From Acidocella aquatica (GTDB taxonomy: Bacteria; Pseudomonadota; Alphaproteobacteria; Acetobacterales; Acetobacteraceae): a stretch of 64,000 nt of DNA. The notes below the pieces were generated by a model that saw only the letters and a program-made list of their open reading frames with translations, did not search any database and was not told the origin of the DNA. Below are positions 53,232 to 63,983 of this stretch, piece after piece (positions within the stretch are counted from its first letter, which is position 1; every line of letters begins with the position of its first letter). Both the position numbers and the translations under genes were made by a program. The DNA lies in the NCBI RefSeq assembly GCF_030160635.1, contig NZ_BSOS01000065.1:1-64000 (forward strand). The letters run 5' to 3'.

Positions 53232-54782
53232 ATGGAACAAGGCGTTGAGGTGGCTATTCTCGATAATGACAAGCAAATTCTTCATCAGATGGGATATGCA
53301 CAGGAATTGTCGCGCCGCATGCGGACATTTCAAAATTTCGCTGTGTCCTTCTCCATCATCTGCATTGTCTCTGGCGGGCTGAACTCCTTCGGCCAGGGCA
53401 TTGGCAGCGTCGGCGGCGCCGCGATTGGCCTCGGCTGGCCGCTCAGCTGCCTGTTTTCGCTGTTCTTTGCCATCGCCATGGGCCAGATCGGTTCAGCCTA
53501 CCCCACCGCCGGCGGTTTATACCATTGGGGCTCCATTCTCGGTGGCCGCTTTGTCGGCTGGGTCACCGCCTGGTTCAATCTTGTCGGCCTGCTCACCGTG
53601 CTGGCCGCCATCAATGTCGGAACCTATCTCTATCTGGTCGGCTCAATTGCCCCTTATTTCGGGATAGATACCGCAGCCCTCACGCCGGCCACGCCAACGC
53701 CTTACAGCATCGCGGTGCAGGTCGCGGTGGTCGGCATCATCACGGCAAGCCAGGGGCTGTTCAACCATCTCGGTATCCGCCTGACCTCAAAGCTTACGGA
53801 CCTCTCAGGCTACCTGATTTTCGCCAGCGCGATTGCTCTTACCGTCACGCTTCTGCTTTGCGCATCTCATATTGATTTGTCGCGGCTTTGGACATTCACT
53901 AACTACAGCGGCGACGCTGGCGGCGGCGTCTGGCCGAAGACCAGCAATATGGGTTATCTCTTTCTGCTCGGGTTTCTCTTGCCGGCCTACACCGTCACGG
54001 GGTTTGATGCTTCGGCGCACACCGCCGAAGAGACGATTGATGCCGCGCGGGCGATTCCCCGTGGCATGATCCACTCCGTCGTCTGGTCCGGGCTGTTTGG
54101 CTGGATCATGCTCTCGGCCGTCATTCTGGCGGCGCCTGATATGAAGACCGCGGCCTCCCAGGGGTTCGGCGCGTTTTTCTGGATCATGAACGTGGTGCCT
54201 CCAGCGTGGAAGCTGGTGCTGTTCGTCGCCATTGCCATCGCGCAATATCTCTGTGGCCTGGCCACGGTTACCTCGGCAAGCCGCATGGTCTTTGCCTTTT
54301 CGCGGGATGGCGGGCTGCCGGGCTCTAAATTCCTGCGCCGGGTCAGCGCCAAATACCGCACCCCGGTGCATGCCATCTGGATGGTGTCCATCCTCTCCGT
54401 CGCCTTCACAATCTACGCGCCGGTTTACACGACCATTGCCGCGGTCTGCGTTATCTTCCTCTATATCTCTTATTTGTTGCCGATCATCGCGGGCCTGATC
54501 GCCTATCGGCGCAGCTGGACGGTAATGGGCCCGTTCGATGTGGGTAAAATGTATCCGGTCTTCGCCATCCTTGCGATCATCGGTGCGGCGGTGCTGCTTT
54601 ATATCGGTGTGCAACCGCCCAACCAACAGGCGTTGACCGTCACCTTGGGCGTTATCGGCCTCACGGTTATCGTCTGGTTCGGCATTGAACGCCGGCGCTT
54701 CCAGGGGCCGCCGGTGGGCGATATGATCAAGCGCCGCCAAATGGAAATCAAGGCCGCCGAGGCCGCGGTAGGGGAGGTCTGA
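53232..54782 (+). CDS. APC-superfamily amino acid/amine permease
   Basis: The 516-aa membrane protein has about 12 TM helices and belongs to the amino acid-choline-GABA branch: FAVSFSIICIVSGGLNSFG in TM1, MGQIGSAYPTAGGLYHW in TM2-3, and GFDASAHTAEETIDAARAIPRGM near residue 258, a signature of that branch. GGGGAG precedes the ATG. The gene ends overlapping the region of the SDR start (TGAGGTG), so the two are coupled. Substrate from context: an amine or amino acid linked to choline metabolism. Confidence 0.82.
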   Translation: MEQGVEVAILDNDKQILHQMGYAQELSRRMRTFQNFAVSFSIICIVSGGLNSFGQGIGSVGGAAIGLGWPLSCLFSLFFAIAMGQIGSAYPTAGGLYHWGSILGGRFVGWVTAWFNLVGLLTVLAAINVGTYLYLVGSIAPYFGIDTAALTPATPTPYSIAVQVAVVGIITASQGLFNHLGIRLTSKLTDLSGYLIFASAIALTVTLLLCASHIDLSRLWTFTNYSGDAGGGVWPKTSNMGYLFLLGFLLPAYTVTGFDASAHTAEETIDAARAIPRGMIHSVVWSGLFGWIMLSAVILAAPDMKTAASQGFGAFFWIMNVVPPAWKLVLFVAIAIAQYLCGLATVTSASRMVFAFSRDGGLPGSKFLRRVSAKYRTPVHAIWMVSILSVAFTIYAPVYTTIAAVCVIFLYISYLLPIIAGLIAYRRSWTVMGPFDVGKMYPVFAILAIIGAAVLLYIGVQPPNQQALTVTLGVIGLTVIVWFGIERRRFQGPPVGDMIKRRQMEIKAAEAAVGEV

Positions 54783-54783
54783 G

Positions 54784-55536
54784 GTGGCGGGCAGGCTGGC
54801 GGGTAAAACTGCCATCATCACGGGCGGCGCCGGAGGATGTGGCGCCGCCGCCGTCCGCCTGTTCGTGGCGGAAGGTGCGCGGGTGGGCATCATCGACCGC
54901 GATGAAGCCCAGGGCAAGGCGCTGGCGGCGGAAACCGGCGCTGTGTTCGCGCAGGCTGATGTCTCCGATGAGGCGCAGGTTATCGCCGCTGTGAGCAATC
55001 TCAATGCGTCCCTCGGCCCGGCGAACGTGCTGTTCAATCATGCGGGAACGCTGATCGTAAAACCGTTCCTGGATATAACGGCAACGGAATGGGACTGGCT
55101 GATGGCCGTGAACGTGAAAAGCATGTTCCTCGTCACCCGCGCGGTCCTCCCCGGCATGATCGCCGCGGGCGGAGGCTCCATCGTTTGCACCTCATCAATC
55201 TCCGCCGTGGCGGCCACCCCGATGGAGGTGCTCTACGACACCACGAAAGGCGCCTGCCACATGTTTGCACGCGCCATCGCTGTGGAGTTCCGGGACAGAA
55301 ATATCCGCTGCAATGCGGTCTGCCCCGGCTTCATCCGCACGCCGCACGGCATGCGGGAGGTAAGAGATTTGCAGGCGCTGGGCGTTGATGTTTCAGAGGC
55401 CGCGCTGGCCGCGCAGCAGGGGCGCATGTGCGAACCCGAGGAAGTCGCCCGCGCCGTGCTGTTTCTCGCCTCGGATGATAGTTCCTTCGTGAATGGAACG
55501 CAGTTGTTCGTGGATAATTGCTTTACCGCGGTGTGA
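54784..55536 (+). CDS. Short-chain dehydrogenase/reductase
   Basis: This 250-aa classical SDR has ITGGAGGCGAAA near residue 13 (TGxxxGxG variant), NHAG near 83 (Asn-Asn replaced by Asn-His), the catalytic Ser in TSSISA and YDTTKGA with YxxxK. The start is GTG 54784, one base after the permease stop. The substrate is unknown. Cotranscription with the permease suggests it oxidises the imported compound or a product. Confidence 0.82.
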   Translation: MAGRLAGKTAIITGGAGGCGAAAVRLFVAEGARVGIIDRDEAQGKALAAETGAVFAQADVSDEAQVIAAVSNLNASLGPANVLFNHAGTLIVKPFLDITATEWDWLMAVNVKSMFLVTRAVLPGMIAAGGGSIVCTSSISAVAATPMEVLYDTTKGACHMFARAIAVEFRDRNIRCNAVCPGFIRTPHGMREVRDLQALGVDVSEAALAAQQGRMCEPEEVARAVLFLASDDSSFVNGTQLFVDNCFTAV

Positions 55537-55650
55537 ACGGCGGGGAGGCGGGTATATGCCGTCAATCAGATAACAATACCGCCTGTTGATTACTGATCGC
55601 CCGAGGGGGGAGGCGATTCCCCCTCAGGACCACGCAACATCATTTTTCTC

Positions 55651-55701
55651 AAAAACCCCCTGTCATCCCGCGGGTTATCTACCCCGGGGGATGGCGGGGG
55701 G
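55651..55701 (-). terminator. Intrinsic terminator of the fdhA transcript
   Basis: A 14-bp stem with two G-T pairs (55656-55669 with 55688-55701) encloses a loop containing a smaller GGGT/ACCC stem. On the minus strand it is followed directly by TTTTT (55655-55651). It begins nine bases after the formaldehyde dehydrogenase stop. Confidence 0.75.
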
Positions 55702-55710
55702 ATGCAACAT

Positions 55711-56910
55711 TCATGCGGCCGTAAGCATGTTGTGCGGATCGATCACGAATTTCTTCGGCGCGCCGGCATCGAACTCGGCATAGCCCTTGGGGGCGTCGTC
55801 AAGCGAAATGATCTGCACGCCGACGATATCGGCGATCTTGATGCGGTCCCATAAAATCGCCTGCATCAGCGCGCGATTATACTTAAGCACCGGGGTCTGG
55901 CCGGTGTAGAAGCTGTGCGATTTGGCCCAGCCGAGGCCAAAGCGGATGCTCAGCGCCCCCTGTCTGGCGGCTTTGTCGGCGGCGCCCGGGTCGTCAGTGA
56001 CGTAGAGGCCGGGAAAGCTGATCTTGCCGGCCGGGCGCGTCACGTTCATCAGCGAATTCAGCACGGTGGCCGGGGCCTCGTGCTGTGCGCCGTCATGGCC
56101 GTGGCCGCGTGCCTCGAAGCCGACCGCATCGATGGCGCAATCAACTTCGTCAGTGCCCAATATCTGCGCGATCTGCTCCGAGAGCGAGGCATCCTTGGAG
56201 AGGTCCACCGTTTGGAAGCCCACCTTGGCGGCGTGGACCAGGCGCACCGGGTTGACATCGCCGACGATAACCACGGCCGCGCCGAGCAACTGCGCAGAGG
56301 CCGCCGCCGCCAGGCCGACCGGGCCGGCGCCCGCGACATAGACCGTGCTGCCAGGGCCGACACCAGCCGTCACCGCGCCATGGAAGCCGGTGGGCAGAAT
56401 ATCGGAGAGGCAGGTCAGGTCACGGATTTTGGCCATGGCCTGCGCCCGGTCGGGGAATTTCAGCAGGTTGAAGTCAGCATAGGGCACCATGACATATTCA
56501 GCCTGCCCGCCGATCCAGTCGCCCATGTCAACATAGCCATACGCGCCGCCCGCGCGCGCCGGGTTGACCGTGAGGCAGACGTTGCTGTGCTGCTCCTTGC
56601 AGGAGCGGCAGCGCCCGCAGGCGACGTTGAAGGGAACCGAGACGAGATCGCCCTTTTGCAGGGTCTCCACATCGCGGCCCACCTCGATCACCTCGCCGGT
56701 GATCTCATGGCCGAGGATCAACCCCGCCTGCGCCGTGGTGCGCCCGCGCACCATGTGCTGGTCGGAGCCGCAGATGTTGGTGGAAACGACCTTGAGAATG
56801 ACGCCATGTTCCGCCCGGCGCCCGCGCGGGTCTTCCAGCTTGGGGAAGGGGATTTTCTGGACTTCGACTTTTCCTTGGGCGATGTAAGCAACGCCTCTGT
56901 TACCTGTCAT
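55711..56910 (-). CDS. fdhA: Glutathione-independent formaldehyde dehydrogenase
   Basis: The 399-aa zinc-containing medium-chain dehydrogenase has catalytic zinc Cys in NICGSDQHMVRGR near residue 47, GHEITGEV, structural zinc cysteines in CGRCRSCKEQHSNVC (98-112), and a Rossmann fold with AGAGPVGLAAAASAQLLGA. The start MTGNRGVAYIAQGKVEV and overall layout match Pseudomonas FdhA, which turns formaldehyde into formate with NAD+. It is next to glyA and a choline transporter, so it would remove the formaldehyde released by betaine demethylation. Confidence 0.88.
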   Translation of the reverse strand: MTGNRGVAYIAQGKVEVQKIPFPKLEDPRGRRAEHGVILKVVSTNICGSDQHMVRGRTTAQAGLILGHEITGEVIEVGRDVETLQKGDLVSVPFNVACGRCRSCKEQHSNVCLTVNPARAGGAYGYVDMGDWIGGQAEYVMVPYADFNLLKFPDRAQAMAKIRDLTCLSDILPTGFHGAVTAGVGPGSTVYVAGAGPVGLAAAASAQLLGAAVVIVGDVNPVRLVHAAKVGFQTVDLSKDASLSEQIAQILGTDEVDCAIDAVGFEARGHGHDGAQHEAPATVLNSLMNVTRPAGKISFPGLYVTDDPGAADKAARQGALSIRFGLGWAKSHSFYTGQTPVLKYNRALMQAILWDRIKIADIVGVQIISLDDAPKGYAEFDAGAPKKFVIDPHNMLTAA

Positions 56911-56959
56911 GTGACCTCCTGATTATTGTACTGGATAGCGGGGCGGGTGCCCCTGCCGG

Positions 56960-58261
56960 TTAACGCGGGTAGATGGGAAAGCGGGCGCACAGCGCGTGGA
57001 CCTGCGCGGCGACCGAGGCTTCAACGGCGGCGTTGGTGCCGTCGTTGGAATGGGCGAGGCCCTCGACCACCTGGTTGATCAGCAGCCCGACCTCGCGGAA
57101 CTCAGCGACGCCGAAGCCGCGCGAGGTGGCGGCCGGGGTGCCCAGGCGGATGCCGGAGGTGATGAAAGGCTTTTCCGGATCGAAGGGGATCGCGTTTTTA
57201 TTGGCCGTGATATGCGCGCGCTCCAGGCTGGCTTCAGTGTTTTTGCCGGTCACGCGTTTGGGCCGCAGATCGACGAGCATCAGGTGGCTGTCGGTGCCGC
57301 CGGAGAAAATATCGAGACCTTCGCCGGCCAGGGTTGCCGCCAGCGCCTTGGCATTCTCGACCACAGCCTTTTGATAAACGCGAAACGATGGTTGCAGCGC
57401 CTCGCCGAAGGCCACCGCCTTGGCGGCGATGACATGCATCAGCGGGCCGCCCTGCAGCCCGGGGAAAATCGCGGAATTGATCTTTTTGGCGATGTCCTCA
57501 TGGTTGGTGAGCACCATGCCGCCGCGCGGGCCGCGCAGGGTTTTATGCGTGGTGGTGGTGACCACATGCGCGTGCTCCATCGGCGATGGATAAATACCGG
57601 CCGCGACCAGCCCGGCGAAATGCGCCATGTCCACCATGAAATAGGCGCCGATTTCATCAGCGACGGCGCGGATGCGGGCAAAATCGATGAAACGCGGATA
57701 GGCCGAGCCGCCCGCGATGATCAGCTTGGGCTTGTGCGCGCGCGCGAGGGATTCCAATTCTTCATAGTCGAGCAGGCCATCTTCACGGCGCACGCCGTAT
57801 TGCACGGCGTTGAACCACTTGCCGGACATGTTGGGCGCGGCGCCATGGGTGAGATGCCCGCCGGCGGCCAGCGACATGCCGAGAATGGTATCGCCCGGCT
57901 TGATGAGAGCAAGAAACACCGACTGGTTGGCTTGGCTGCCGGAGTTGGCCTGCACATTGGCGAAACCCGCGTTGAACAGTTTCTTCGCGCGCTCGATCGC
58001 CAGGGTCTCGGCCAGGTCCGCCGGGCCGCAGCCGCCGTAATAGCGCTTGCCGGGGTAGCCCTCGGCGTATTTATTGGTGAGCACCGAACCCTGCGCCGCC
58101 AGCACCGCGGCCGAGACGATGTTCTCCGAGGCGATCAACTCAATGCCATCCTGCTCACGGCGCAGCTCGGCGTTGAGGATGCCGGCAATTTCAGAGTCAG
58201 CCTGCACGAGCGGGGCCGAAAAGAAGTGCTCCAACTCTTGGGTGGGGTAAGATGTCGTCAT
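56960..58261 (-). CDS. glyA: Serine hydroxymethyltransferase
   Basis: The 433-aa PLP enzyme interconverts serine and glycine with folate C1 units. It has [13 protein letters not shown] near residue 67, the PLP lysine in [16 protein letters not shown] near 236, and [10 protein letters not shown] near 364. It lies between choV and fdhA on the same strand (49 and 74 bases), matching the glyA-fdhA pairing in betaine-sarcosine pathways. Whether it is also the housekeeping copy cannot be told from this window. Confidence 0.95.
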
Positions 58262-58335
58262 GACGAGAGGTTCAACTCCAGGTTAAAGGCAAATTTCAGA
58301 CACACCGGTGGCGTCTGGCGCCGCGGAAGGAAATG

Positions 58336-59565
58336 CTAAACAGCGGCCGGGACGGCGTGTGTTCTTCTGTTTTTTCCAGATATGGCCTGCAAAATATCCT
58401 TGATCCGGCAGATGCCGACGATTTTTCCGTTGTCATGGATAAGGGCCGGACGGTCGGATATTTGTTGTGCGTTCACAACCTGCTTCAGCGGCATTTCAAG
58501 CGGCACACAGGCAATAAAATCCTCCGGCGCGCCAGGAAAATTCTCCCCCTCCGCATAGGCAAAAGGAATGGTCCGGCCGCCGCAGGTTACGCTCTGCAGC
58601 CTGTCCTCGCGGTCGATCTCAAGGGTGTAGTCTGCGCCGCAGTGGAATGCGATGCTGTTCCCCTGGCGGGCGAAATCGCCAAGCGGGAGCATGACGGAGG
58701 AGGCGGTAAGCGCATTGAGCGGGTTCATGTGCTGGACGAACTCGGCCACATAATCGTTCTTCGGCCGCAGGATAATATCTTCCGGCCGGCCCGTCTGCAC
58801 AATGCGCCCGCCTTCGAGGATGGAGATGTGGTTGCCGATTTTGAGCGCTTCATCCAGGTCATGGCTGACAAAGAGGATGGTTTTCTTCAGCCGTTTTTGC
58901 AGTGAGAGCAGCTCATCCTGCAGTTTGGTGCGGATCAGCGGGTCAAGCGCCGAGAAGGGTTCGTCCATCAGCAGAATATCAGCATCGGTCGCCAGCGCGC
59001 GGGCCAGGCCGACACGTTGCTGCATGCCGCCTGAAAGTTCGCTGACATAGCGATCAGCCCATTGCGTCAGCCCGACCAGTTCGAGTTTTTCATCAACAGC
59101 CGCCTTGTAGTCGCGCGGTTTGAGCCGGCGCAGTTCCAGGCCGAAGCCGACATTCTCGCGCACGGTCTTCCATGGCAGCAGCGCGAATTGTTGAAACACC
59201 ATGGCCACGCTCTCGGTGCGCAGCTTGCGCAGCATCGCGGCGCTGGGCTGGGCGGCATCGAGCATGCCATCCTTGTGCTGCACGAGAATCTGCCCGCTGG
59301 TGACCTGGTTCAACCCGTTCACAGCCCGCAGAAGCGTGGTCTTGCCGGAGCCGGAGAGGCCCATGAGCACGGCGATTTCGCCTTTTTCAACCGTGAGGTT
59401 GGCGTTGCCGACACCCAGCACCGCCTTGGTCGAGGCGATGATCTCGGCCCGGCTCTTGCCCTGGCGGATTTCCTCTATAACCTTCGCCGCCTTGATACGG
59501 TCAGATTTTCTGTTGCTGACGCCAAAGACGATATTAACGTCGATAAACTGGATGGCGATGCTCAT
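58336..59565 (-). CDS. choV: Choline/glycine betaine ABC transporter ATPase
   Basis: The 409-aa ProV-type ATPase has Walker A MGLSGSGKTTLLRA near residue 70, signature LSGGMQQRVGLARAL near 173 and Walker B ILLMDEPFSALDP. It is followed by C-terminal CBS-like segments (LKQVVNAQQISDRPALIHDNGKIVGICRI). The N-terminal NVVFGV-like extension is characteristic of quaternary-amine uptake systems. Its start overlaps the permease gene by four bases. Confidence 0.9.
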   Translation of the reverse strand: MSIAIQFIDVNIVFGVSNRKSDRIKAAKVIEEIRQGKSRAEIIASTKAVLGVGNANLTVEKGEIAVLMGLSGSGKTTLLRAVNGLNQVTSGQILVQHKDGMLDAAQPSAAMLRKLRTESVAMVFQQFALLPWKTVRENVGFGLELRRLKPRDYKAAVDEKLELVGLTQWADRYVSELSGGMQQRVGLARALATDADILLMDEPFSALDPLIRTKLQDELLSLQKRLKKTILFVSHDLDEALKIGNHISILEGGRIVQTGRPEDIILRPKNDYVAEFVQHMNPLNALTASSVMLPLGDFARQGNSIAFHCGADYTLEIDREDRLQSVTCGGRTIPFAYAEGENFPGAPEDFIACVPLEMPLKQVVNAQQISDRPALIHDNGKIVGICRIKDILQAISGKNRRTHAVPAAV

Positions 59566-60464
59566 GATTGACTCGTCTTATCTTCAGAGGGACGGAATAC
59601 ACGGTCGAGGATGATCGCGAGAATGACGATGGCAAGGCCGGATGTGAAACCCTCACCGATCTGGACGGTTTCCATGGCGTCGACCACCGGTTCACCCAAT
59701 CCGCCCGCGCCGACGAGTGCGGTGATCACCACCATCGAGAGGCTGAGCATGATAACCTGGGTAAGCCCGGCAAGGATCATCGGCCGGGCGGCGCGCAGTT
59801 CAACCTTCAGCAGGAGCTGGGTCTTCGTCGCGCCGAAAGCCTGCCCGGCCTCGATCAGCGGGCGGGGCACGGAGGAAATGCCCAGATAGGTCAGACGTAT
59901 CGGCGTGGGCAACACGAAGACGATGGTGGAGATAAGGCCAGGCACGGTGCCCAGGCCGAAGAGCACCAGCGTGGGGATGAGGTAGACGAAGGTTGGCAGC
60001 GTCTGCATGAGGTCAAGCACCGGATGCAGGATGCGATAAAGCCAGGGGCGGTGCGCCGCGGCGATGCCGATGGGCACGCCGATGAGCATGCAGAAAAATG
60101 TGGCGTAGAGGATCAGCGCCAATGTCAATACGGTATCAGACCAATACCCCTGGTTCATCACAAACACCAGGGATAGGCCGACAAACAGCGCGAGCTTCCA
60201 GGATTTGCGCGTAAACCACACCGCGGCGACGAATATGCCGATCAGCAGCGGGCCCGGTATATCAAGCAGGAGGTTTGCTGTGTTGTCCAGCAGAAAGCCG
60301 AGGCCGTCGGAAATGACGTTGAAAAAACCGGCGGCGTTGGTTTTGATAAAGTTGATGTACCAGATGGCCCACGGGCCGACGGGTATCTGATTTGCCGTAA
60401 TCCATGTTTCCAACGCGTTCAAGGTATCGGCCTCCATAGCATCCATAAACCCCATGTGCTGCAC
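59562..60464 (-). CDS. choW: Choline/glycine betaine ABC transporter permease
   Basis: The ~300-aa ProW-type permease has about six to seven TM helices and the coupling-loop signature EAGQAFGATKTQLLLKVELRAARPMI, followed by ALVGAGGLGEPV. The N-terminus has a polar segment and an amphipathic part as in ProW. Several starts are possible (GTG 60464, ATG 60455 or 60446) and none has a clear ribosome site. It lies between choV (overlap) and choX (73-base gap). Confidence 0.88.
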   Translation of the reverse strand: MQHMGFMDAMEADTLNALETWITANQIPVGPWAIWYINFIKTNAAGFFNVISDGLGFLLDNTANLLLDIPGPLLIGIFVAAVWFTRKSWKLALFVGLSLVFVMNQGYWSDTVLTLALILYATFFCMLIGVPIGIAAAHRPWLYRILHPVLDLMQTLPTFVYLIPTLVLFGLGTVPGLISTIVFVLPTPIRLTYLGISSVPRPLIEAGQAFGATKTQLLLKVELRAARPMILAGLTQVIMLSLSMVVITALVGAGGLGEPVVDAMETVQIGEGFTSGLAIVILAIILDRVFRPSEDKTSQS

Positions 60465-60537
60465 GCAACGAGGGCGGTTTAAGTCAATAGCACCGCGAGG
60501 TCAGCGCCAGGCGCGCTGGCGCCAACCTCGCGCACGC

Positions 60538-61503
60538 TCAGTTAGCCAGTGCGCTGGTGACAGCCGCAAGCCCCGGCTGGCCTGTGGTGGTGACCACGTT
60601 GGCAAGCTCGGCCTGCACCCATGCCGGGTTGGCCTTCAACCAGGTCTTGGCGACGTCATCGGCCTTCTCGCCTTTGATCTGGATGGCATACATCATCGTG
60701 TTTTCAGCATCGATCGGCAAGTTGAAATTCTTCAGCATGGTGCCGACATTCGGGCACTGCGCCGCATAGCCGTGCCGGGTGTTGATGTAGATTTTGGCAG
60801 CGCCCTCATTGGGGCCGAAGAATTCATGACCACCGCTCAGGTATTGCAGGCTGTAGGTCACGTTCATCGGCTCCGGCTCCCAGCCGAGGAAGACAATCGC
60901 CTTCTTCTGCGGATACAGCCGTGAGACCTCGGAGAGCATACCGGCCTCGCTCGACTGCACGAGGTGGAATTTGCCCAGGCCGAACTTGTTCTCCTGAATC
61001 ATCTTCAGGATATGCTCGTTGCCGTCGTTGCCCGGCTCGATGCCGTAGATGTTGTAGTTGAGCTGCGCGCCGAACTTCTGGATGTCTGCGAAGGATTTCA
61101 GGCCTTCGTTATAGAGATAGGTCGGCACCACGAGGGTATATTTGGCGCCGGTCAGGTCGGGGCCCATCACATCGATTGTGCCGGCCTTCTCATAGGGGGC
61201 GGTGATGGAATCCATCGAGGGCGTCCAGTCATCCAGGAAAATATCAAGCTGGTTGTTCTGCAACCCGGCGTAGGCGACCTCTTCGGCGAAGAGGGTGCTC
61301 TTGGGGGTGTAGCCCAGCGCCGTCAGGATATTCGAGAACACGGCGTTCTGCACTTCATTGTCGGTCCAGCCGATATCGGCCATGCGGACCGCCTGGCAGG
61401 ATTGCGGGTCGGTGGCGGCATGGGCGGCCGTGGTGGGGGCGGCGGCGAGGCCCAGGCAAAGAAAACCTGCGGCGAGCGTTGGGGCGAGGGATGTTTTTTT
61501 CAT
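60538..61503 (-). CDS. choX: Choline ABC transporter substrate-binding protein
   Basis: The 321-aa periplasmic protein has a Sec signal (MKKTSLAPTLAAGFLCLGLAAAPTTAAHA) and an OpuAC/ChoX-type domain: MADIGWTDNEVQNAV near the mature N-terminus, DIFLDDWTPSM near 95, and FLGWEPEPMNVTY near 205 with aromatic residues for the quaternary amine. The start was set at ATG 61503, with AAGGA seven bases upstream. It is divergent from the betI-betB frame, so choline import and oxidation share one control region. Confidence 0.88.
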   Translation of the reverse strand: MKKTSLAPTLAAGFLCLGLAAAPTTAAHAATDPQSCQAVRMADIGWTDNEVQNAVFSNILTALGYTPKSTLFAEEVAYAGLQNNQLDIFLDDWTPSMDSITAPYEKAGTIDVMGPDLTGAKYTLVVPTYLYNEGLKSFADIQKFGAQLNYNIYGIEPGNDGNEHILKMIQENKFGLGKFHLVQSSEAGMLSEVSRLYPQKKAIVFLGWEPEPMNVTYSLQYLSGGHEFFGPNEGAAKIYINTRHGYAAQCPNVGTMLKNFNLPIDAENTMMYAIQIKGEKADDVAKTWLKANPAWVQAELANVVTTTGQPGLAAVTSALAN

Positions 61504-61874
61504 GAAGCGTCCTTTCAATCGGAGTGGGAAATAAGCAGTCTTGGCCTCGGGTCTGGTGCCGCGTGTTTAGCCGGACTAGGCAGTTCAATCGGGATTAAAT
61601 AGCCGTTCAAGTAAGATTTGTGTCCTTAAAGCGAAAATACCGATAGTCCGGCTTTTTTGTTTTTCTCTTCTGTTCTTAGCCTTGCAAGCCCTATCATCGG
61701 CATTCGGGCGATACTTACTTGTGTGATTCCGACGCATGGCTTGAATGAAATGGGGGAATGCGACGAAAAAGGGGCGGATAAAAATTTTTACTTTTTTTGT
61801 TGATTGGTTGTTCAATTACGTGTTTTCTGTCGGAAAGCAAACAAGCAAAAACTTCGCGGCTGCCGCGTGAAATC
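61504..61874. promoter_or_regulatory. Divergent control region between choX and betI-betB
   Basis: This gap of about 370 bases holds no convincing gene and is AT-richer than average. Candidate signals are the dyad-like ATTGGTTGTTCAAT at 61803-61816, which resembles BetI sites (ATTG...CAAT) as I recall them, and two copies of TTCAATCGG (61514-61522 and 61587-61595) on the choX side. Promoters could not be fixed. Confidence 0.45.
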
Positions 61875-63983
61875 ATGATAGGGGTCATCACCATTACTAC
61901 ATTAGTCCACCAAAACAACGGCTCAACCGAAGATTCCCGGCGCGGGCAGATTATTGAGGCGGCGATAGATACCATCGCCGAGCTTGGTTATGTGGGGACC
62001 ACGCTGGCGCAGATCGCGGCCCGCGGGGGTGTCTCGGCGCCGCTGATCTCGCATTATTTTCAGGACAAAAACGGCCTGATGGAGGCTGTGTTTCGCAAGC
62101 TGGTGCAGCGCGTGGCGCGTGGTGTGGTGGTGCGCCAGGGGCGGGCGCAAACGCCGCGCGCGCGGATTCAGGCGGTGATTGACGCCAATCTGGCGCCGGA
62201 GGAGTTTGACAGCCGCACCGGCATTGCCTGGCTGGCTTTTTGGGGGCAGGTGATACATGTGCCGCAATTCCGCCGGGTGCAGGTGGTGTATCAGAGCCGG
62301 ATTCTCAGCAATCTGCGCCATGCGCTGCGTCCGCTCGTGCCGGCGCATGAGGTGGCTGAAACGGCGGCGATGATCGCGGCGATGATCGATGGGGTGTGGC
62401 TGCGGGCGACCTTGTCGGACTGGAGCGAGACGAACAGCGATTCGGCCCGGCTGATGGTGAGCCATCTGGTGGATATGGCGCTCGCCGCCGCGCAGGGAAA
62501 AATGCAGATTTTGCAGCGCGCCACGGGGCAGGTGCAAAAAAACTTCATCAATGGCGGGTTCGTCAATGCGGCCGGAGGGGAGACTTTCGAGACGCGCAAC
62601 CCGGCGACCGGGGCGGTGCTGAGCACGGTGGAAATTGCCGGCGCGCCTGAGATTGAGCAGGCGGTGGCGGCGGCGCGGGCGGGCCAGCGCATTTGGGCGC
62701 GGATGACCGGCGCGCAGCGCGGGCGCGTGTTGAACGAGGCGGCGCGGCTGCTGCGGGCGAAGAACGGCGAACTCGCCCTGCTCGAGACGCTCGACACCGG
62801 CAAGCCGATTCAGGAGACCAGCGTTGTCGATGTTGCCTCCGGCGCTGACTGCCTGGAATATTTCGCAGGCATCGCCAGCGGCCTTGCCGGCGAGCAGGTG
62901 GACCTCGGTCCCGCCGCCTTTGGCTATACAAGGCGTGAGCCGCTGGGGATTGTGGCTGGCATCGGCGCATGGAACTACCCGCTGCAGATCGCCTGCTGGA
63001 AGGCCGCCCCCGCGCTGGCCTGCGGCAACGCGATGATCTTCAAACCCGCCGAGATGACGCCGCTCACCGCGCTCAGGCTGGCGGAAATTTTCAAGGAGGC
63101 AGGCCTGCCCGATGGGGTTTTCAACGTGGTGCAAGGTTTCGCGGCCACCGGGCGGATGCTGACGCAGCATCCCGGCATCCATAAAATCTCCCTCACCGGC
63201 GAGGTTGGCACCGGCCGCGCGGTGATGGCCGACGCTGCCGCGTCACTCAAGCATGTGACCTTGGAACTGGGGGGCAAGTCGCCGCTGCTGGTGTTTGAGG
63301 ACGCCGATCTCGACAATGCGGTCTCCGGCGCGCTGCTGGCGAATTTTTATTCCGCTGGTGAAGTCTGCTCAAACGGAACGCGCGTGTTCGTGCATGAGCA
63401 GGTGCGCGATGAATTCCTGCGGCGCCTCAAGCTGCGCACCGAGGCGATGCGCGTGGGCGATCCGCTGGACCCGGCGACGCAAGTGGGCGCGCTGATCTCA
63501 CCGGCGCATATGAACAAGGTGCTCTCCTATATCGAGGCCGGAAAGGCCGAAGGCGCGACACTGGTGACCGGCGGCGCTCGCGCCCTGGCCGGGGCGCTGG
63601 CGCAGGGCTGCTTCGTGGAGCCAACGATCTTCGCTGATTGCCACGATGAGATGAAGATCGTGCGCGAGGAGATTTTCGGCCCCGTGATGTGCGTGTTGAG
63701 CTTCCGCGACGAGGACGAGGCCGTGGCCCGGGCGAATGCGACACGCTTTGGCCTCTCGGCCGGGGTGTTCACGCAGGATCTGACGCGCGCGCACCGGGTG
63801 ATTGCGAATCTCGAGGCGGGCACCTGCTGGATCAATCATTTCAACGTCACGCCGATCGAGCTTCCCTTCGGCGGCGTCAAGCAGTCCGGCCTGGGCCGGG
63901 AGAACGGCAAGGCCGCGATCGAGCATTATACGCAGATCAAGAGCGTCTACGTGGCGCTCGAAAAAATCGACGCCCCTTACTGA
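61875..63983 (+). CDS. betB: BetI-BetB fusion: TetR repressor joined to betaine aldehyde dehydrogenase
   Basis: One open frame of 702 codons encodes two complete proteins. Residues ~18-205 are a BetI-type TetR regulator, with [29 protein letters not shown] and the BetI-specific [10 protein letters not shown] and DGVWLRA. Residues ~222-702 are BetB, with GAWNYP, Glu464 in LELGGKS and nucleophile Cys498 in SAGEVCSNG. No stop separates them and the linker is about 15 residues. An internal ATG (62502, residue 210) with GGGA upstream would give a 493-aa BetB of normal size, so separate BetB may also be made. A frame start at TTG 61797 is less likely. Confidence 0.85.

Follow-up and report, generated by a model that had tools for sequence, protein, structure and literature searches.

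Repressors of the TetR family are mostly described as stand-alone dimers, and the known betaine aldehyde dehydrogenases (BetB) are tetramers. In the separate betI-betB-betA operon found on plasmids of Pantoea and Pseudoalteromonas, the gene order is equal to that of the locus described here, with betI and betB as separate CDSs. In Ruegeria pomeroyi, BetI1 protects the palindrome ATTGACG-CGTCAAT, which fits the betI box consensus (passages of PMC12442346). Repressor-enzyme fusions are already known in kind. To our knowledge, the closest functional precedent for the protein presented below is PutA, whose N-terminal DNA-binding domain is a ribbon-helix-helix. According to passages of PMC9132996, PutA couples an aldehyde dehydrogenase with an N-terminal repressor of its own pathway. 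Searches of titles and abstracts in the open-licence PMC literature identified no description of a BetI-BetB fusion among the matches listed, and in PMC7824335, as far as 12 of its 16 uses of "fused" go, the word describes methyltransferases or a solute.

In the window, the whole 64-kb stretch of Acidocella aquatica DNA that was analyzed, translation identified one uninterrupted frame of 702 codons plus a stop at positions 61875 to 63983 of the plus strand, on a contig of 273,929 bases. Pfam placed three domains on the 702-amino-acid product and no others, all above their cut-offs. These were the helix-turn-helix domain TetR_N (residues 26 to 72; positions 61950 to 62090, plus strand), the BetI-type C-terminal ligand/dimer domain TetR_C_6 (residues 94 to 203; 62154 to 62483, plus strand), and Aldedh (residues 230 to 691). 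The NCBIfam betaine-aldehyde dehydrogenase model PRK13252 matched residues 219 to 702, encoded by the BetB part of the gene (62529 to 63980, plus strand), at 807 bits (cut-off, 593), and TIGR01804 gave 699 bits for the same half (cut-off, 668.6). Taken alone, the BetI half scored 181 bits with the BetI model PRK00767 (cut-off, 118) and 190.5 bits with TIGR03384, narrowly below the cut-off of 201.3; the fused proteins of 14 of 21 carrier genomes reached this last value and those of the other 7 fell below it. The gene encodes one protein, here named BetIB, in which a complete BetI repressor is joined to a complete betaine aldehyde dehydrogenase, BetB. The initial annotation had proposed exactly such a continuous frame, and the 702 stop-free codons with model matches to both halves bear it out. 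A chance run-on from BetI into BetB was ruled out, as both domains are complete and conserved.

BetIB resembles BetI in pairing TetR_N with TetR_C_6, in scoring above the PRK00767 cut-off, in having a predicted operator of the betI-box type, and in lying next to betA. It differs in that the repressor is joined to BetB in one polypeptide and, for the window copy, in the TIGR03384 score. The likeness to BetB extends from both NCBIfam scores to the conserved catalytic residues and to the structures PDB 6wsa, 2wme, and 3r31, which share 57 to 60% identity with BetIB over the Foldseek alignments; what sets BetIB apart is its N-terminal repressor, together with the loss of the first strand motif of BetB itself in most of the fused relatives examined. 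As in PutA, an aldehyde dehydrogenase is fused to an N-terminal repressor, and the architecture and predicted operator of BetIB would fit repression of its own operon. The parts are different, however. PutA binds DNA with another domain and also contains a proline dehydrogenase domain. Pfam identified neither in BetIB, which carries TetR_N as part of a TetR repressor equipped with a ligand domain and has no second enzyme domain. An AlphaFold2 model of the BetIB monomer, built from a 69-row alignment (mean pLDDT, 86; pTM, 0.71; low confidence at residues 1 to 15 and 660 to 666), contained the complete TetR helix set. The 50 Foldseek matches listed for this model were all aldehyde dehydrogenases, with betaine aldehyde dehydrogenases on top, and none of these 50 carried both halves.

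An assembly or sequencing error masking a stop codon or frameshift, a caveat raised in the initial annotation, could in principle produce such a frame. Many carriers of the fusion are metagenome bins, and the genome of the window (4,032,656 bases) is in 137 contigs. However, copies of the gene sharing 98, 97, and 95% identity were found in three other genomes of the same genus with no stop in any, a recurrence that makes a hidden stop very unlikely. The same open junction is present in four same-genus assemblies, out of 38 genomes in the genus sample and none with a stop, as well as in two complete plasmids and isolates of several genera. In the family sample 17 of 29 genomes with a close BetB have it, and a wider scan found it in 73 of 80 loci. 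An error was thus rejected and can be given next to no probability.

The initial annotation had suggested looking for the fusion elsewhere in the family, where it turned out to be the commonest arrangement among the sampled genomes with a close BetB. Among 299 family genomes searched, 29 had a close BetB (E value of 1e−160 or better); all 29 loci were opened and 17 were fused, although in one of these (L196) the frame covers BetI incompletely. The 12 unfused loci comprised 5 with a same-strand betI and 7 that showed no betI, 2 of the latter (L197 and L199) being at contig starts. In the class sample, at least 3 of 48 matching genomes carried the fusion (385 genomes searched; 31 of the 48 loci opened), and in the phylum sample at least 5 of 110 did so (398 genomes searched; 30 loci opened). 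The family, class, and phylum counts all refer to genomes matching the whole query at a set E value.

When public genomes were scanned for the BetI half, with patterns derived by aligning seven BetI sequences (six fused, one unfused), 80 loci were obtained, of which 73 read stop-free from BetI into BetB; this ratio is not a prevalence, because the patterns are biased towards fused-like BetI. None of the 80 had a stop at the end of BetI. Among the remaining seven, the contig runs out ahead of BetB in five, and two (L106 and L119) continue stop-free past the end of BetI and go out of frame further on. In 68 of the 73 fused loci, over 640 residues of the frame are present, while L085, L093, L118, L135, and L137 are incomplete but reach BetB. 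L044 and L089 have the same junction and are very likely one gene, and both were kept in the counts over 73 rows and 75 upstream stretches given below; the near copies L071 and L073 were both kept in the 73-row counts. L044 and L073 were left out of the 71-row counts and L106 out of the unfused sets. Judged by their record titles, the carriers range from isolates of Aureimonas, Bosea, Kaistia, Ancylobacter, and Methylobrevis, several of these genera belonging to the order Hyphomicrobiales, to many metagenome-assembled genomes named Caulobacterales, Steroidobacteraceae, or Gammaproteobacteria. On two complete plasmids of Komagataeibacter saccharivorans, a single CDS (676 and 692 amino acids by coordinates) spans both halves and is annotated as betB only. 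The statement in the initial annotation that BetI and BetB are separate genes elsewhere was therefore too narrow, while the single-frame fusion on which it remarked is real. A recent event in a single genome was ruled out by the 73 loci, the 17 family genomes, and the clade in the BetB tree described next.

In a tree built from the BetB part alone (62 rows), 34 fused and 3 unfused sequences (L051, L059, and L160) fell on one side and 25 unfused sequences on the other, with support of 100/89 from a bootstrap that had yet to settle. A quick tree of 103 rows likewise gave a single clade for the fused rows, which also took in L051 and L059, L059 being a long branch of unsure placement. The unfused L051 (G163) and L059 (G375) had no betI in the fetched loci. 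L160 (G680) is sister to the fused L161 (G710), with support of 98/93; its Met lies directly before the conserved NPAT motif, and it is short like its fused neighbors. With no betI in its fetched locus either, L160 looks like a later loss of the BetI half.

The fused or unfused label needs four changes on the 62-row tree, which is what one gain and three losses would give. Repeated independent fusions of an operon with its genes already in frame would be another way to arrive at this number, and none of 200 bootstrap trees needs just one change. The raw material for such events exists: in the unfused L045, L047, and L049, just a few codons separate betI from an in-frame betB, so that losing one stop can fuse them, and in L045 and L072 the two genes share one frame with a stop between. 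Loss of the stops between such neighbors could have made the fusion, whether once or several times. Against repeated fusion, all 34 fused rows fall in one clade of 37, and no betI was seen in the fetched loci of its three unfused members, as expected of losses. We consider repeated fusion unlikely, and a single origin with losses appears to be the simplest account of the tree.

Both halves of BetIB retain their key residues and are under purifying selection. In all 73 aligned fused rows, the helix-turn-helix region keeps R22, G38, L44, R50, L57, H60, F62, and K65 unvarying, and W119, W123, and Y139 of the ligand/dimer domain are unvarying in the 69-row alignment. The catalytic cysteine C498, assigned by alignment (codon at 63366 to 63368, plus strand), is conserved in 73 of 73 rows together with E464, N367, K390, and a further glutamate, E599; the catalytic roles of these five residues are assumed from aldehyde dehydrogenase enzymology. 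Nei-Gojobori dN/dS ratios among the four Acidocella copies were 0.10 to 0.17 for BetI and 0.03 to 0.07 for BetB. In all 21 carrier genomes the best BetI match was the fused protein itself, the next match to the BetI model in any of them reaching 122 bits, and the fused protein was also the single BetB above the cut-off, one genome having a second dehydrogenase below it. No other close BetI or BetB was therefore identified in the 21 genomes; most carrier genomes are drafts, and how far the fused gene is the only copy depends on how complete they are.

A putative betI-box operator lies in front of the gene at 61800 to 61816 (ATTGAACAACCAATCAA on the minus strand), with zero mismatches to the fused-family consensus. 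It is the sole site in the genome at zero mismatches, and none was found at one mismatch. At two mismatches there were 47 sites, compared with 25 for a control pattern, which does not make a convincing betI-box regulon; a looser degenerate operator pattern returned one further genomic site, on contig C46. A simple scan found no sigma-70 promoter at the operator site. No RNA elements were identified at the fusion locus, the matches in the window at gathering thresholds being three tRNAs elsewhere.

Across the fused genes, the operator core ATTG-N6-CAAT was searched for within 250 bp upstream, allowing one mismatch at most (7-of-8). It was found in 55 of 75 upstream stretches, where 6.9 were expected from dinucleotide shuffles, and in 14 of 852 control stretches, which lie downstream of the BetI start and are mostly coding; L009, L073, and L126 had too little upstream sequence and were left out of the 75. 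The 55 sites, three of which are near copies from Acidocella, gave the consensus ATTGAACA-NN-CA-N-TCAA, which includes positions outside the search pattern. All 13 unfused betI genes scored like the fused ones, the box of L063 being a poor palindrome that may be due to chance. At the 7-of-8 match within 250 bp, the core was absent in 20 of the 75 fused loci, and it was also absent in 2 of the 3 fused loci added from the phylum sample (L158 and L161). Within the family sample, 10 of 17 fused loci had it, including the window, and some others have a diverged box by eye. Overall, a BetI-type operator core precedes most fused genes and is the predicted binding site of their product.

These results bear on whether the BetI half is a passive leftover, with the protein working as a plain BetB that carries an N-terminal appendage. 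Such a protein would fit the stronger constraint on BetB than on BetI, the fused loci that have no good operator core, and the three BetBs of the fused clade that have no adjoining BetI. A leftover would not be expected, however, to show clear purifying selection on its BetI half or to hold residues of the helix-turn-helix and ligand domain unvarying over 69 to 73 rows. Conservation of operator positions that were not part of the search pattern also argues against it, as does the lack of another close BetI in 21 of 21 carrier genomes. A passive BetI half is accordingly quite improbable.

The junction comprises residues 204 to 229 (62484 to 62561, plus strand), a gap of 26 residues between TetR_C_6, ending at 203, and Aldedh, starting at 230. 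According to the AlphaFold2 model, the final TetR helix spans residues 188 to 216 and the N-terminal strand of BetB begins at 223, leaving a short modeled hinge. Pairs of the four Acidocella copies differ by zero or one replacement changes in the junction. The initial annotation had pointed to an in-frame ATG at 62502 to 62504 (plus strand) as a possible start of a free BetB; its position and the 493-residue product are as claimed, the ATG being residue 210. A GGGA at 62495 to 62498 ends just 3 nucleotides upstream, which is a short spacing for a ribosome site, and the ATG has no clear Shine-Dalgarno sequence. All four Acidocella genes keep the equivalent ATG, preceded by CCGCGCAGGG with the spacer AAAA, GAAA, or CAAA, and all four also keep the N-terminal strand of BetB.

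Outside Acidocella this ATG is not conserved across the fused family. A survey of start codons from a dozen residues ahead of the junction to its end, over the 73 aligned fused rows, found an ATG with a clear Shine-Dalgarno sequence in 4 rows and an ATG without one in 22. A further 40 rows had GTG or TTG only, 4 of these with a clear Shine-Dalgarno sequence, and 7 had no start codon in the stretch covered. By pattern, the N-terminal strand motif of BetB was absent from 50 of 71 fused proteins, or from 49 when the variant form in L130 is accepted as the motif. A linker, often Ala/Pro-rich, takes its place, so a restart that yields an ordinary BetB would hardly be possible in those proteins. The motif was present in 25 of 30 unfused BetBs, 4 of the 5 misses failing just an over-strict pattern (IHG).

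Two products per gene, namely, full-length BetIB and a free BetB started internally at ATG 62502, with free enzyme exceeding repressor, would be in keeping with the ATG behind CCGCGCAGGG and the strand retained in Acidocella, with the 21 of 71 fused proteins that retain the strand by pattern (L130 in variant form), and with the rows, 4 with ATG and 4 with GTG or TTG, that have a clear Shine-Dalgarno sequence. The remaining 65 of 73 rows have no clear Shine-Dalgarno start in the stretch covered, 7 of them lacking any start codon there, and this, the loss of the strand in about 50 of 71 proteins, and the 3-nucleotide spacing of the GGGA in the window make dual production doubtful. A general internal start for BetB across the fused family was unsupported. 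The retained ATG and strand make a second product possible in Acidocella, and the free BetB of the initial annotation may thus hold for that genus; it does not appear to be a shared design of the fused family. It could also be that BetIB is cleaved after synthesis.

The surroundings of the fusion read as a choline-use locus. A divergent open reading frame for a ProX-like ABC substrate-binding protein lies at 60538 to 61518 on the minus strand, with homologues near other fused genes, and is followed by proW-like (59562 to 60464) and proV-like (58336 to 59565) frames; these three names are presumptive and were given by resemblance. ProX-, ProW-, and ProV-like genes were identified in 40, 37, and 40 of 71 fused loci, respectively, in loci that differ in length. 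No BCCT-type betT-like gene was found in the same 71 loci with one query from Pantoea. The next gene after the fusion encodes a betA-like GMC oxidoreductase that starts on the plus strand at GTG 64000 or ATG 64003 and extends past the end of the window (L043:12001-13665). Among fused loci with more than 600 bp downstream, betA lies within 500 bp downstream in 67 of 68, the sole exception being Kaistia terrae (L149). Downstream of the betA-like gene are genes with sarcosine oxidase subunit domains.

Positions 53232 to 61518 of the window and L043:12001-19501 together resemble a choline-to-serine catabolic island, five of its genes being assigned by Pfam and the rest by eye. These are genes for an amino acid permease, an SDR, and proteins resembling a Zn-dehydrogenase, serine hydroxymethyltransferase, and ProXWV, together with betIB, betA, sarcosine oxidase-like subunits, and the start of a serine dehydratase-like gene.

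Taken together, BetIB is likely to be a self-regulating, choline-responsive repressor-dehydrogenase that follows the logic of PutA with other parts, DNA binding and the response to choline being predicted properties. Without choline, BetI dimers of BetIB would occupy the operator and hold down betIB-betA. Choline bound by TetR_C_6 would then alter the binding of BetIB to its operator, and the operon would be expressed. In E. coli, choline stimulates the formation of BetI-DNA complexes (introduction of PMC12442346), so simple release of BetIB from DNA is not certain. Each new repressor would arrive as an equimolar BetB subunit and the two activities would rise and fall together, so the operon would carry its own brake at a fixed 1:1 ratio. 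Once choline had been consumed by BetA and BetIB, repression would return. If the BetB halves form a tetramer, two repressor dimers would be gathered in one particle. The initial annotation had proposed that fusion ties the repressor to the enzyme, and the link holds in that one mRNA and one polypeptide carry both, behind a predicted BetI-type operator.

A bolder and considerably less probable proposal is that BetIB acts as a trigger enzyme, in which the dehydrogenase would signal through the continuous last TetR helix to the repressor whether it has bound NAD+ or betaine aldehyde or has formed a tetramer. If so, choline would share control of the operator with the flux through the final step, and BetIB would be a second, independently evolved switch of the PutA type, derived from a TetR repressor.

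The fusion may explain bet clusters that seemingly have no betI, as on the K. saccharivorans plasmids, where the annotation gives betB only. A table in PMC7824335, as far as its entries for Acidiphilium cryptum and A. multivorum go, lists both species with proXWVbetBA and no betI, and the betB genes of these species may be fused likewise. As a widespread fusion of a TetR repressor to an enzyme that keeps its operator, ligand domain, and catalytic residues, BetIB would offer a natural test of how fixed 1:1 expression of repressor and enzyme affects induction, and also of whether information on the state of an enzyme can reach the promoter of its gene through the enzyme itself.
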